From the IMG/VR virus record IMGVR_UViG_3300040801_002292, positions 1-25,238 of that record: a stretch of 25,238 nucleotides of DNA; one strand, 5' to 3'. Within the stretch, counting starts at the first letter, position 1; each line of letters begins with the position of its first letter. The translations under genes and the position numbers were made by a program. Origin of the DNA: a virus. Shown here piece by piece: positions 3,430 to 25,238 of the stretch. The notes under the pieces were generated by a model that searched no databases, had not been told where the DNA came from, and saw only the letters and a program-made list of their open reading frames with translations.

Positions 3430-5178
3430 CTAGAACCCCATCTGACGGCCAAGCTGGCCGAAGGTCGTGAACATCTGGTCCCTCGCGTTCTGCGTCTCAA
3501 GCCACCGCGAGTCCTCTCGCAACGACATCTTGAACTCGGTCAGCGACTGGCCGGACTGCAACGCAGTCTGCACCGTCTTGTCCAACAGGGACGGCCGCGC
3601 CACCTCCAACTGGTTCGAGAACATCTCAAGGTACGGCGCCGCCCAGTCGGACGTCTTGATGCCCTTCGGCTTCCCCTGGTATGTGATGGAAGCCTTCTCG
3701 TCCAGGTCCTGCTCGATCTCAGCGATCGACGTCTCGTTCATTGACACCTGCTCACCGATCTTCAACGCCTCCGCCCACGGCAGCTCAAAGCCCCAGTCGC
3801 GGTACAGCTGCTGAACCTCAGCGGCCTTCGTCTCAATGTTGACTTCCTCCTGGCCCTGCGCCTTCTCCTCGTCGCGTTTGATCCTCGACCAGGGACTGTT
3901 CTCGTTCTTCTCAGCTTCGGCCTTGATCCAGGTGTTGATCACCGTCTGCTGCGTCGCCTGCCCGGACGCAACCGACAGCGCCTGCCGGTACAGCTCAGGG
4001 TTACCGGCCTCGAGTTCAGCCGGAGACACCGTCCCGTCACCGTCGGTGTCGTACACGTCGAGGCTGAGGTCCTCGCCGACATACGTCCACCAGAGGCCAG
4101 CGAGCTTCGCCGCCTCGTCGGCGATCCGGAGGTCACGCTCCGCCGTCGGCAGGTCGTCCCATTCCTTCTGCTTGACTGTCTTCGAGTCCCAGTAGTCCGT
4201 CTCCTGGAGCCGCTGCTGCAACTCGCCGGCCGACATGCCGGGCCTCGCGATCCACAGCGCGATCAGGTCGAGGACACCGCGGTCCGCCATCGCATCGGAC
4301 CCATAGATGCCCATCGCGAACAGGGCCTCTTCGATCTGCTCATCCCACGACATGCCGGGAGGAGAGCCGGCGAACGCGTCGGTAGAGCCGCCGTCCTGCC
4401 ACCCCTCGCCCATCACCAGCGAATCCCACTCGGACATGCTCATCTTGGTACCGGACGACGTCAGCTGGTCACGGCCTGCCGTGACCTCAAAGTAGACGGC
4501 CGTCGATACGCCATTGAGACCGACGATGTTCCCGACGACATAGAACTTGCCGTCGACCTCGTAGACGTCCATGCCGCGCGGTATGTACACCGTGTCAGCG
4601 ACACCGCCCTCGTAGTTATCTCCCGTCGGATACACGCTTTCGCTCCTTGCCCCGTATGACTGATTGATCAGGTTCGTCGGATCGACGGTACCCTCACTCG
4701 TGTACATCCGCATATGCAGGTGCGACCCCGTCGAGGCCGCATTCCCGCTGTTACCTACCGCCCCCAGAGTGGTGCCGGCAGAGAACGTCGTACCGACCGT
4801 GACCGGCGGCGGAGACTGCATATGCGCGAAGTAGTAGGTCACACCGTCGTCGCCGAGGAACGTGACCGTGTAGCCGCCGACACCGGTGTTGTTACCGACC
4901 GCGATGACCCTGCCGCCGACAGGCGCCCGGATCACAGACCCGGCCGGTGCCGGGATATCAACCGCATCGTGATAGCGGTCCTTGATCAGGGTGTTCGGAT
5001 ACCAGCCGCCATAGCCGGTCGCTGCCGGCACAGGGAACAGCCAGCCCGAACTATCCCCCGGATAGCCGACAACGGTCGGCATGGTCCTGCCATACTTGTC
5101 TACCGTGCTGGTCGTCGACCCGGCCGGCGAAGAAGGAGAGGATGTCGTGGGGAGGGCATCGCCTTCCAGGATAGGCAT
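3430..5178 (-). CDS. Virion protein with M23 peptidoglycan endopeptidase domain and EF-hand
   Basis: A 582-residue protein. Residues about 45-170 form an M23 (lysostaphin-type) zinc peptidase: H70 and D74 in HDAVD, H119 in YFAHM, and H153-x-H155 in GSHLHM. All zinc and catalytic positions of the family are therefore present. The known activity is cleavage of peptide cross-links in peptidoglycan, here probably to open the host wall during DNA entry. Residues 377-388 (DTDGDGTVSPAE) match an EF-hand or dockerin-type calcium loop. The C-terminal half carries an actinophage virion module: 'TDYWDSKTVKQKEWDDL' near 327-343, then a WxxP...Y helix region, ending in 'LREDSRWLETQNARD'. There is no holin or signal peptide, so a virion-borne rather than lysis enzyme is likelier. 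The ATG at 5178 abuts the previous stop codon. Confidence 0.85.
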   Translation of the reverse strand: MPILEGDALPTTSSPSSPAGSTTSTVDKYGRTMPTVVGYPGDSSGWLFPVPAATGYGGWYPNTLIKDRYHDAVDIPAPAGSVIRAPVGGRVIAVGNNTGVGGYTVTFLGDDGVTYYFAHMQSPPPVTVGTTFSAGTTLGAVGNSGNAASTGSHLHMRMYTSEGTVDPTNLINQSYGARSESVYPTGDNYEGGVADTVYIPRGMDVYEVDGKFYVVGNIVGLNGVSTAVYFEVTAGRDQLTSSGTKMSMSEWDSLVMGEGWQDGGSTDAFAGSPPGMSWDEQIEEALFAMGIYGSDAMADRGVLDLIALWIARPGMSAGELQQRLQETDYWDSKTVKQKEWDDLPTAERDLRIADEAAKLAGLWWTYVGEDLSLDVYDTDGDGTVSPAELEAGNPELYRQALSVASGQATQQTVINTWIKAEAEKNENSPWSRIKRDEEKAQGQEEVNIETKAAEVQQLYRDWGFELPWAEALKIGEQVSMNETSIAEIEQDLDEKASITYQGKPKGIKTSDWAAPYLEMFSNQLEVARPSLLDKTVQTALQSGQSLTEFKMSLREDSRWLETQNARDQMFTTFGQLGRQMGF

Positions 5179-21686: not shown

Positions 21687-23564
21687 CTACTCCGGATGCC
21701 AGATCCGGGGATCGATATTCGGCGGAGACGGCTCCTCGTCGATCTGGAACTCCCGCACGGCGGCATGGTCCGTCGGGGAACCGATCGTCATACGACGATA
21801 CCCCGCCGCCGACGCGGACAGATGACCGGGCCGCTGCTGCGACACAGGGACCGGGTCGACGCTCTGCGACTGGAAGTCGACGATGCGGCGGCGCCGCTTG
21901 ATCCGGTTCGGCACCCTCGCATGCGAAAACATCGGCATATGCGCCCGGTGCAGCAGATCCCGCACACCCAGATCAGCGAACCAAAACGACATCACCCGGT
22001 CCGACGTCTGCGCCATCGGGAACCCGATCAGCTCATCCAACAGCGGCTGCATCCGCTGCGCCGTCGGCGCATTCGCCCACGGAATCGACACCATCTCCGC
22101 ATGGAACAACGTCGCCATCGACTCCACACCAAACTGCGGGTCCCACTTGTTCGTATGCGTATGGTGCGGCGTCACCCGCACACCCCTCCGCGCCAAATGC
22201 TGAATGACCTCCTGGTTGTACTGGATCAGCTGCGACTGCAAACCATTCGACTCCACCCGAAACTCAAACAACGGGTACTGCTCAACCCACTCGAAGATCT
22301 TGTCCTTGATCTGCGGCGCCTTCATCGCCCGCTGAGCATACGTCTCAACAAGGAACCGCTTCCCCGTCTCCAAGTCGACACCCAACAAACAGAACGCCGT
22401 GAACCCAGACGACTTGTTCGCCCCCGCCGGGTCCAGGCCGGCGATCAGACGCCACCGCGGATCCCAATGCCCAAACACCCGCGACGTGTCCTTGCACTGG
22501 TCCAAGATGTCCTGCGTAAACGACGCGCCCAGGCCCGGCACATCCACATTCTGATACACCAACTGGAAGTCCGCCGGCTTCATCTCAGACTTGTGGATCA
22601 ACACCTGACTGAACGGGAAATGCTCCGGCCACAACACCTGCTCCAGCTCCGCATCGATCAAAGCCGGATAGCGAATCACCTTGTACCCGGGCCGGGTCCC
22701 GAGCGTGTAGTAGATATCCCCTGCCGATACCCGCGTACCGACCCACACTGCCTGGCCGGACTTCCCGACACGGGACAGGGCCTCCTTGTCGATCCACTCC
22801 AACATGCTCGCAACCCGGTCCGGGTTGTTCGAGTTCTCCAACGTCGCAACGTCATCGAACTTGATCTTGTCAAACCGCTTCCCATAGATCTGCGTCCCGA
22901 ACCCCAGCGCCGTCACCGTCGCGTCCTTCTCCGCACGAGTCCGGCCCGACACGATAATCTCCTGAGCGTTCCACGTCGCCTGACCATCCGGCTTGAACGG
23001 CCCATAGTCATCGATCAGGTTCCCGTCGCTGTTCTCATACAGCTCCGGGTTCGTCAGGATCTCCTGGATCTGGCGGATGAACGTCTCCGCGAACCGCGAC
23101 GACTTCGACACAATCGCCGTACGCGTATCCCGGTCACGGCAAATGTCATACACCGTATGAAACACCGAAATCAACGTCGACTTCGAGTGATACGGCGGGA
23201 TGTTCACCAACACCCGCCGAGCATCCGGCGCCTCCAGGGCCTCCACAATCTCGAGATGGAAATCCGGGAGCTGATGATGCACACCACAGTCAGGACACAC
23301 CCAGCCGCCAAAGTACCGGTCAAACCACACCTTGAAAGACGGGAAGGGCCGCGACGCCACATCGGCGCGCGCGGCCACCTCCCGCTTCGCCTGGTCCACA
23401 CGTTCGTCCATGAGCCTACGAGCATCACGCAACCGAACATTCAGATGCTGCCGCGAAACACCGAACTTCTCCGCAGCCGCCCTCTGTGTCATACCCTCAT
23501 CAAGCACCGCCTGCTCAGCGGCCTCGAACTTCCGGGCCTTCGACCAGGCATCATATCTCCCCAT
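21687..23564 (-). CDS. terL: Terminase large subunit with N-terminal helix-turn-helix
   Basis: A 625-residue DNA-packaging motor protein. Residues 14-50 (EAAEQAVLDEGMTQRAAAEKFGVSRQHLNVRLRDAR) form a helix-turn-helix of the type usual in small terminases. Residues 90-97 (CPDCGVHH) could bind zinc. The ATPase has the deviant P-loop IPPYHSKST (122-130) and a Walker B region KIKFDD (233-238). The RNase H-like nuclease has D378 in AGLDPAG, E438 in FRVESNG and probably D522 in TSDRVMSFW. It cuts and pumps DNA into the head through the portal. The ATG at 23564 has only a weak G-rich Shine-Dalgarno sequence. No separate small terminase gene is seen, so the fused helix-turn-helix may supply DNA recognition; this is inference. 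Confidence 0.92.
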   Translation of the reverse strand: MGRYDAWSKARKFEAAEQAVLDEGMTQRAAAEKFGVSRQHLNVRLRDARRLMDERVDQAKREVAARADVASRPFPSFKVWFDRYFGGWVCPDCGVHHQLPDFHLEIVEALEAPDARRVLVNIPPYHSKSTLISVFHTVYDICRDRDTRTAIVSKSSRFAETFIRQIQEILTNPELYENSDGNLIDDYGPFKPDGQATWNAQEIIVSGRTRAEKDATVTALGFGTQIYGKRFDKIKFDDVATLENSNNPDRVASMLEWIDKEALSRVGKSGQAVWVGTRVSAGDIYYTLGTRPGYKVIRYPALIDAELEQVLWPEHFPFSQVLIHKSEMKPADFQLVYQNVDVPGLGASFTQDILDQCKDTSRVFGHWDPRWRLIAGLDPAGANKSSGFTAFCLLGVDLETGKRFLVETYAQRAMKAPQIKDKIFEWVEQYPLFEFRVESNGLQSQLIQYNQEVIQHLARRGVRVTPHHTHTNKWDPQFGVESMATLFHAEMVSIPWANAPTAQRMQPLLDELIGFPMAQTSDRVMSFWFADLGVRDLLHRAHMPMFSHARVPNRIKRRRRIVDFQSQSVDPVPVSQQRPGHLSASAAGYRRMTIGSPTDHAAVREFQIDEEPSPPNIDPRIWHPE

Positions 23565-24181: not shown

Positions 24182-24200
24182 GAGACGCTGTCAGCGTCTC
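24182..24200. repeat. Hairpin at the composition switch (2)
   Basis: GAGACGCT (24182-24189) and AGCGTCTC (24193-24200) form a perfect 8-bp stem with a 3-nt loop. It lies between two other strong hairpins. Confidence 0.5.
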
Positions 24201-24215
24201 TCCGGCCCTGTGGCC

Positions 24216-24252
24216 GCACGGTTCGACAGACTGCACAGTCTGCGAGCCGTGC
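24216..24252. repeat. Long hairpin at the composition switch (3)
   Basis: A 37-nt near-perfect hairpin: GCACGG/CCGTGC outer stem, a T-G wobble, TCG/CGA, one bulged A (24226), then CAGACTG/CAGTCTG as inner stem (227-233 with 236-242). Smaller hairpins follow: TTCCTG/CAGGAA (24253-24268), GGCAGG/CCTGCC (24284-24297) and CACCAG/CTGGTG (24326-24345). It is the strongest structure in the divergent region apart from the ribozyme. Confidence 0.55.
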
Positions 24253-24340
24253 TTCCTGCCACCAGGAACAAGACCAGGCCCGGGGCAGGCCCCTGCCTCC
24301 ATGTAATACCGTGCCTACGGCCGCACACCAGCTTCGTGTC

Positions 24341-24499: not shown

Positions 24500-24529
24500 T
24501 TGACGGGGTGTTCTGGGCGTGTGTAGTCT
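24500..24529 (+). promoter_or_regulatory. Candidate sigma70-like promoter for the rightward transcript
   Basis: TTGACG (24500-24505), an 18-nt spacer and TAGTCT (24524-24529) form a plausible promoter of high-GC Gram-positive type. Transcription would start near 24536. This gives a leader of about 320 nt before the gene at 24855, and the leader would include the hammerhead ribozyme. A short CTCGG/CCGAG hairpin (24528-24545) overlaps the predicted start site. Confidence 0.45.
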
Positions 24530-24684
24530 CGGGTCACGAACCGAGTTGAGGAGGACACGGCGAGGACGGCCTACCCCAGATGAAACCCACAGCACCCCGG
24601 GGACGCACCTGCGGAGCCGCACGGATCGGAGCGGCGAACACTTGAGCAGGGGAGACGAGGGTGGTGGGTAGCCCCACATGACCA

Positions 24685-24704
24685 CCAGGACCGGAGGGTC
24701 CTGG
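24685..24704 (+). promoter_or_regulatory. Leader hairpin upstream of the ribozyme
   Basis: CCAGGACC (24685-24692) pairs perfectly with GGTCCTGG (24697-24704) around a GGAG loop, 19 nt before the ribozyme. Part of it (CCTGG) could alternatively pair with CCAGG at 24829-24833, just after the ribozyme core, extending stem II. The two folds would be mutually exclusive. Confidence 0.5.
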
Positions 24705-24723
24705 GCGTTGGCTGTGGGAACAA

Positions 24724-24830
24724 GGCGAAACAACGAGTCCCTGCTGAGTGTGGGGGTGTGCCGAGGCCCGCTGAGGCCATGCGGCTGATCGTTGTCCACC
24801 GGGTGTGGCCCTGCCTGGTGCTGATGAGCC
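24724..24830 (+). ncRNA. Type II hammerhead self-cleaving ribozyme
   Basis: All conserved hammerhead elements occur in circularly permuted type II order (open at stem II). Stem II 5' strand GGC (24724-24726); core GAAA (24727-24730); stem III CAACGA (24731-24736) with TCGTTG (24789-24794), six perfect pairs on top of A15.1-U16.1; U16.1 at 24795; cleavage-site C17 at 24796. Stem I CACCGGGT (24797-24804) pairs with GCCTGGTG (24813-24820; six Watson-Crick and two wobble pairs) around an 8-nt loop. Core CTGATGA is at 24821-24827, and the stem II 3' strand GCC at 24828-24830 includes the conserved G10.1-C11.1 pair. Stem III encloses 52 nt that can fold further (GCCG/CGGC, 24760-24763 with 24782-24785). 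The clear part of stem II is only 3 bp, the weakest part of the model. Cleavage would fall between 24796 and 24797, 58 nt before the downstream start codon, leaving 5'-OH on the mRNA fragment. Confidence 0.82.
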
Positions 24831-24840
24831 AGGGCAATCG

Positions 24841-24854
24841 AGGAGGACATGACC
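24841..24854 (+). promoter_or_regulatory. Shine-Dalgarno deciding the start of the rightward gene
   Basis: A perfect AGGAGG at 24841-24846. The ATG at 24849 is only 2 nt away, too close; the in-frame ATG at 24855 is at the optimal 8 nt. The site begins 10 nt after the ribozyme core, so ribozyme folding or cleavage could affect its accessibility. Confidence 0.75.
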
Positions 24855-25223
24855 ATGTCGAGGAGTTTGTTGGTGTCGTCGGAGCGGCGGGAGCGGAAGA
24901 TCGAAGACCTCCGGGTGATTGAGCGGGACATCGTGGTGCGGCACCGTGATGCCGAACGTGTCAAGGCGTTCGGGCTGGACGCTGCGGCGACGGCCCGGAC
25001 GAAGGTCGAGGTGGAAGAGTTCATCACCGGCACGGGCCGTCATGCGAACGTGAACGTCCACGCCGACCGCGGTGTCGGTGTCGACAATGTGTTCGGTCAG
25101 GTGCTGGGCGATTCGGTGGCGGTGACGGTGGGGAATGTGACGCTGTTCGTCACCCTCGAGCAGGCCCGTGAGCTGGTCGCCCAGTTGCTGGGCGACGGGG
25201 TGGAGCGGATGGCGGACGAGTAG
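24855..25223 (+). CDS. Rightward hypothetical protein in a ribozyme-led transcript
   Basis: A 122-residue protein from the ATG at 24855 (124 residues if the ATG at 24849 were used), ending with TAG. The N-terminal 50 residues are highly charged and helical (ERRERKIEDLRVIERDIVVRHRDAERVKAF, then TARTKVEVEEFITG). The middle is beta-like (HANVNVHADRGVGVDNVFGQVLGDSVAVTVGNVTLFVTLEQ) and the end is a short amphipathic helix (ARELVAQLLGDGVERM). No signal peptide or catalytic motif. No family recognised. It is the only rightward gene in the window, divergent from the virion operon, so it may start the early or replication-side operon. A long leader with a hammerhead ribozyme precedes it. Confidence 0.8.
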   Translation: MSRSLLVSSERRERKIEDLRVIERDIVVRHRDAERVKAFGLDAAATARTKVEVEEFITGTGRHANVNVHADRGVGVDNVFGQVLGDSVAVTVGNVTLFVTLEQARELVAQLLGDGVERMADE

Positions 25224-25238
25224 CCGAAACACCCCTTC

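Follow-up and report, generated by a model that had tools for sequence, protein, structure and literature searches.

A predicted self-cleaving type II hammerhead ribozyme in the leader of a divergent phage operon, and arrays of such ribozymes at gene junctions of related contigs

We analysed a 25,238-nt stretch of viral DNA (positions 1 to 25,238 of IMG/VR record IMGVR_UViG_3300040801_002292, henceforth the window), in which a hammerhead ribozyme lies within a 1.3-kb region between the terminase gene and a rightward gene of 124 amino acids. The features of the region are the following:

21687-23564, minus strand: terminase gene (PHROG terminase large subunit)
24500-24529, plus strand: promoter-like TTGACG-18-TAGTCT, found by eye only
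24724-24835, plus strand: type II hammerhead ribozyme including its pseudoknot strand (Rfam RF02276 and descriptor)
24724-24726 with 24828-24830, plus strand: stem II, GGC with GCC (from sequence; G24724-C24830, G24725-C24829, C24726(11.1)-G24828(10.1))
24727-24730, plus strand: catalytic core strand GAAA (G12 A13 A14 A15.1; sequence and Rfam alignment)
24730-24795, plus strand: stem III and loop (24730-24736 with 24789-24795; 52-nt loop with two predicted hairpins)
24796/24797, plus strand: predicted cleavage site, after C17 (C24796 = H17; GUC 24794-24796 directly 5' of stem I)
24797-24820, plus strand: stem I hairpin (24797-24803 with 24814-24820)
24821-24827, plus strand: catalytic core strand CUGAUGA (sequence and Rfam alignment)
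24831-24835, plus strand: 3' pseudoknot strand AGGGC, pairing with loop I GCCCU 24808-24812
24840-24847, plus strand: Shine-Dalgarno (SD) sequence GAGGAGGA, 4 nt past the pseudoknot strand
24849-25223, plus strand: first gene of the rightward operon, 124 aa, start at 24849
25223-25238, plus strand: second type II hammerhead, 5' part only, cut off by the contig end

Viral contigs, phages, PHROGs and Pfam yielded no relative of the 124-aa gene, and a stricter promoter scan reported no promoter, TTGACG-18-TAGTCT not being recovered. The terminase-divergent region also holds two strong inverted repeats at 24182-24253 (GAGACGCTGTCAGCGTCTC and GCACGG...CCGTGC). Elsewhere in the window, a 582-aa protein encoded at 3430-5178 on the minus strand resembles, by eye, an M23-type peptidase in its N-terminal part.

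According to a first-pass annotation of this DNA, a noncoding leader that runs opposite to the terminase operon contains a complete type II hammerhead; the sequence, the Rfam Hammerhead_II model and a strict descriptor (core, stems and their order) all agree with that description. The copy has the type II topology, with loops closing stems I and III and stem II open, and it contains everything that the type II core requires, i.e., CUGANGA (as CTGATGA in the DNA), GAAA, the pairs G10.1-C11.1 and A15.1-U16.1, and an H17 other than G at the UH cleavage site. Stem III, annotated with 6 bp, comprises 7 bp when the A15.1-U16.1 pair is counted (A24730(15.1)-U24795(16.1) to A24736-U24789), while stem I, annotated with 8 bp, was counted as 7 bp (C24797-G24820 to G24803-C24814), or 9 with wobble pairs. 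The cut that had been placed after 24796 follows both from the sequence and from the Rfam match. Absent from the annotation was a 5-bp pseudoknot between loop I and the tail (G24808-C24835 to U24812-A24831), which has the usual register (2-3 nt after G10.1) seen in 98 of the 120 non-redundant copies whose pseudoknot has at least 4 bp among the matches listed in the survey below. Most type II copies found here have a stem III loop of 2-5 nt, whereas the 52-nt, two-hairpin loop of the window copy is among the largest of the type II set (among the matches listed).

Hammerhead_II matched over the whole model at 24723-24838 (+) with 35.2 bits, corresponding to an E-value of 8e-4 over all of Rfam and both strands and of 1.9e-7 for the window record with this family alone. 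The Rfam search that had been proposed as a check was thus positive by E-value but slightly below the gathering threshold of 37 bits, which is a curation cut-off and not a structural feature; two array copies in the related contig L041 likewise scored just under it (34.7 and 33.3 bits). The missing bits were probably cost by the 52-nt stem III loop. The strict descriptor matched once in the window and not at all in 10.1 Mb of simulated first-order Markov sequence of the same composition, bearing out the earlier view that chance assembly is improbable. These comparisons confirm the element, at the level of sequence, as a type II hammerhead for which self-cleavage is predicted. No type I or type III hammerhead was found in the window, and its Rfam matches to mir-6012 and M23 were at chance level.

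The fold energy of the hammerhead region was unexceptional (z 0.48), and we rejected this z-score as uninformative. In the minimum free energy structure computed without the pseudoknot, neither stem I nor stem II survives; this competing fold beats the hammerhead fold by about 7 kcal/mol, a lead that does not yet count a pseudoknot energy of about -7.5. Energies alone would therefore not have pointed to the hammerhead.

The second copy, which the first-pass annotation had also missed, starts with the final G of the stop codon TAG (25221-25223) of the 124-aa gene. Its sequence CGAAACACCCCTTC recurs unchanged in complete hammerheads of L040 and L280. Wherever else CGAAACACCCCTTC occurs in the loci examined, a complete hammerhead begins with it (L040, L280 and further copies of these contigs); in the window, Rfam gave a weak match at this second copy (25203-25229, 11.5 bits). 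The window thus carries one complete hammerhead and one ended by the contig edge, on the same strand, the former being the first of a probable array, which lay beyond the reach of the annotation, as did the four related contigs with complete arrays (L040, L041, L280 and L296). In each of these, an operon divergent from the terminase gene has hammerheads at successive junctions.

A terminase search returned 26 related loci, and Rfam detected hammerheads in two of these records, both as arrays divergent from the terminase gene, with three copies in one (G003) and five in the other (G004). L280 and L296, with the same operon arrangement, came from pattern scans (among the matches listed). The maximum in a single operon was reached in L296, with a type III leader copy and nine type II copies at successive junctions, as counted by a looser rule (the strict descriptor finds six of the nine); several of them overlap the upstream stop codon by its last base. 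By contrast, no hammerhead was present in eleven further terminase relatives for which 2 kb or more of upstream sequence was available, so the trait is lineage-specific and not essential to this phage group.

Several other RNA features accompany these arrays. About 250 nt of leader RNA are conserved upstream of the first ribozyme (L040 1165-1440, L041 12000-12275, L280 9165-9465) and gave no Rfam match; window positions 24530-24796 are partly alignable to them, with GGGGAGAC in common. At gene junctions downstream of the hammerhead arrays, L280 (13474-13575, +) and L041 (7474-7554, -) have tmRNA-like RNAs consisting only of a tRNA-like domain and a short insert (61.6 bits, above the gathering threshold of 47, and 44.5 bits, just under it, respectively). 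ARAGORN found no tRNA in L040 or L041. Past the last hammerhead of L041, an element is repeated at junctions (~9480-9370, 8910-8800 and 8290-8190, -) that consists, by eye, of a small tRNA-like fold, a hairpin and then CAGCAATACCAACGAGGAG, and it may be another processing signal.

We then considered type II copies more widely, in a survey based on scanning viral contigs for copies whose stem III has CCCC/GGGG, taking the matches listed only. This GC-stem pattern replaced a first pattern, CTGATGAG-N-CGAGGAG, whose matches in viral contigs (among those listed, one per stretch) were on reading mostly chance. Applied to all loci examined, the descriptor found at least 282 distinct type II copies in at least 110 loci, with up to eight per locus. 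Among the matches listed, the stop codon of an upstream open reading frame adjoined stem II in 178 of 282 copies (compared with 331 of 5640 random positions), and an SD with a start codon followed within 45 nt in 189 of 282 (compared with 370 of 4423 random positions, a figure slightly favoured by the first pattern, which required CGAGGAG downstream). For about a third of the copies no adjoining stop, or no SD with a start, was found. In multi-copy loci, every copy lay on one strand in 64 of 64 cases (among the matches listed). Type II ribozymes therefore tend to lie between the stop codon of one gene and the SD of the next, and neither strand, position relative to the stop codon nor the pseudoknot had been selected for in the survey. 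Stem III was 88% GC among the matches listed, a figure biased upward because a GC-rich stem III was part of the pattern by which much of the set was picked out; it often carried UUCG or GNRA loops, and its hairpin had a median energy of -10.7 kcal/mol. Most of 100 genes directly downstream of hammerheads had no known function (one was ArdA) and none had a PADLOC match; the median length in the whole set of 121 downstream genes was 82 aa.

Since a plain MAFFT alignment of the copies misaligned the stems, pairing was assessed by the descriptor and by re-pairing loops and tails between copies. A pseudoknot of at least 5 Watson-Crick pairs was present in 75 of 152 non-redundant copies, against 7.2% after re-pairing, and 82 different pseudoknot words of at least 4 bp occurred, mostly in one register (both among the matches listed). 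At the second pair of stem II, U-A, G-C, C-G and A-U all occur, pairing there being required by the descriptor, and the third pair, which the descriptor does not require, was present in 143 of 152 copies. The idea that only type II copies occur between genes failed, as L294 has a type III-like intergenic copy with a stem III mismatch. In addition, low-GC phages (L282, L283, L285, L287 and L289) have type I hammerheads, apparently directly after stop codons (by eye), with an SD-like word inside the closed stem III hairpin.

In all four related contigs with complete arrays the leader copy is a type III hammerhead, and the SD of gene 1 is contained in ACGAGGAG, the 3' strand of its stem III. An equivalent arrangement built from other stems occurs in L284, L290 and L293, where a type II copy follows gene 1 (in L290 by eye). 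Across six type III leader sequences every cell pairs, and both partners have changed in 9 of 18 pairs, a number that none of 500 shuffles reached; since the search pattern fixed part of stem III, this covariation evidence rests in stems I and II. The predicted openness of the SD rises from 0-0.10 in the uncut leader to 0.21-0.69 in the cut product, figures that assume separated products, which a stem III of 8-10 bp (about -12 kcal/mol) may hold together for some time; for type II copies, and for the window copy, it hardly changes on cleavage. Type III leader hammerheads of related and unrelated phages are thus predicted to unmask the SD when they cut.

The survey also reached a laboratory phage. 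Streptomyces phage R4, whose recorded host is S. coelicolor A3(2), has nine type II hammerheads above the Rfam gathering threshold in the region L281, and another locus, L210, is identical to its relative Streptomyces phage Paedore. Three annotated R4 mini-genes, gp60.1, gp67.1 and gp75.1 (L281 2623-2706, 4986-5078 and 7934-8035), contain one type II hammerhead each and are probably not genes, and the annotated starts of gp72, gp76 and gp81 each overlap a ribozyme, so the annotation probably needs correcting. One annotated gene of the hammerhead region encodes an OCR-like antirestriction protein.

Taken together, our main reading, to which we assign a probability of about 0.72, is that the window ribozyme, a type II hammerhead predicted to cleave itself, serves in mRNA processing for a rightward phage operon that is probably early. 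In the phage-infected cell, it would cut the leader at 24796/24797, in the nascent or the finished transcript, and thereby detach noncoding 5' RNA (roughly 260 nt if the promoter seen by eye is assumed), so that the mRNA of the first gene would start with a 5'-hydroxyl and a folded segment (stem I and the loop I/tail pseudoknot) just before the SD. Further copies, from the one at the contig end onward, would cut after each stop codon. The two halves would be held by stem II alone, usually of 3 bp, so that only this stem must open; the GC-rich stem III hairpin, with one overhanging base, would then form the 3' end of the upstream message, and stem I the 5' end of the downstream one. Each ribozyme would thus act at once as RNA separator, 3'-end protector and 5' insulator, and a long polycistronic transcript would probably be resolved into single-gene units with hairpin-capped ends, to the presumed benefit of the phage. 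Type II may be used between genes because its stems I and III stay closed and leave hairpins on both new ends; protection of these ends is inferred from the structure.

Several alternatives have to be weighed against this processing of the operon mRNA. The hammerhead could serve mainly to insulate or stabilise the following gene at its 5' end, with separation from the upstream gene as a by-product. Engineered hammerhead insulators of the RiboJ type cut off the RNA upstream of them and give the remaining message a structured 5' end, and the window copy, with stem I and the pseudoknot immediately ahead of the SD, lies in a leader without an evident upstream gene on its strand. However, in arrays the upstream stop codon also marks where copies begin, and their stem III forms a strong, GC-rich tetraloop hairpin, which suggests selection on the upstream product too, and we consider a mainly insulating role unlikely. 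A second alternative is that the enlarged stem III loop binds a ligand or protein and so sets the rate of cleavage in the operon leader. Its unusual size and two-hairpin fold would suit such regulation, which Perreault et al. raised as a possibility for phage hammerheads (PMC3088659), but the insert occurs in no relative found here and related leaders use a type III hammerhead instead, making this very unlikely. Equally slim is the chance that the hammerhead sequence is chiefly a recombination site for shuffling small-gene cassettes, cleavage being incidental: some homologous genes do keep both flanking hammerheads between relatives (L280_1 and L296_3, similarity 0.98 and 1.0) while other genes in the arrays have different neighbours, yet pseudoknot words differ between copies with pairing kept, and stems of leader copies covary, which points to selection for structure rather than DNA identity. 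Finally, a chance or decayed sequence without activity, as the score under gathering and the unremarkable folding energy might suggest, is very improbable given the complete core, three stems and pseudoknot, their absence from 10 Mb of random sequence, the arrays in relatives and the partial copy at the next stop codon.

Beyond mRNA processing, we tentatively suggest, as a doubtful extension, that the operon might be run by ribozymes alone. A leader hammerhead would gate gene 1 (in relatives by masking the SD in stem III until self-cutting) and a type II copy at each further junction would yield end-capped mRNAs; in the window, a type II copy whose enlarged stem III is possibly a sensor would have taken the place of this gate.

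Phage hammerhead arrays of the kind that the window copy probably begins were already reported in 2011. The remark in the first-pass annotation that the purpose of hammerheads in phages is largely unexplained therefore needs qualifying, since Perreault et al. 2011 had already found clusters of phage hammerheads on either side of genes and proposed that they process transcripts (PMC3088659). In that study, cleavage of tandem hammerheads was shown in vitro, and for Agrobacterium ardA also in E. coli; the mapped mRNA 5' end of the haloviruses HF1/HF2 lay within 3 nt of the predicted cut; and a loop I pseudoknot was described as widespread among natural hammerheads, one type II example depending on it for rapid cleavage (PMC3088659). 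The words “Shine-Dalgarno” and “ribosome” are absent from its main text. We found no later study of phage hammerhead arrays in the open-licence literature, and neither a measured stop/SD placement, a near-saturated operon like that of L296 nor a natural SD-containing stem III in open-licence papers.

With type II hammerheads in general (Rfam RF02276; PMC3088659), the window copy shares the core, the open-stem-II permutation, the short stem II and the loop I/tail pseudoknot. The clustered hammerheads of prophages and haloviruses (C. scindens, A. caulinodans, A. tumefaciens ardA; HF1/HF2) likewise flank single genes or short blocks, they include a leader copy near the start codon of an early gene, and some of the genes have anti-restriction functions (PMC3088659); by contrast, here the stop/SD placement was measured over 282 copies (among the matches listed), and the L296 operon has copies at successive junctions together with a leader copy. 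The regular order of stop codon, ribozyme and SD, with hairpins on both type II ends, offers a specific, testable reason for phage hammerheads, a question dating from 2011, and the processing suggested then can now be tested in a laboratory phage. Theta (HDV-like) phage ribozymes have also been proposed to process phage transcripts, but they have another fold and are linked to tRNA trailers, not gene junctions (PMC10879173). Unlike RiboJ-type insulators, the elements described here are natural, lie in phage operons and have no known ligand. Engineered SD-masking hammerhead switches hide the SD in a ribozyme stem as the type III leader copies do, whereas the SD next to the window copy is not hidden in this way; if active, type III leaders with the SD in stem III would be a natural counterpart of these engineered ribozyme switches.
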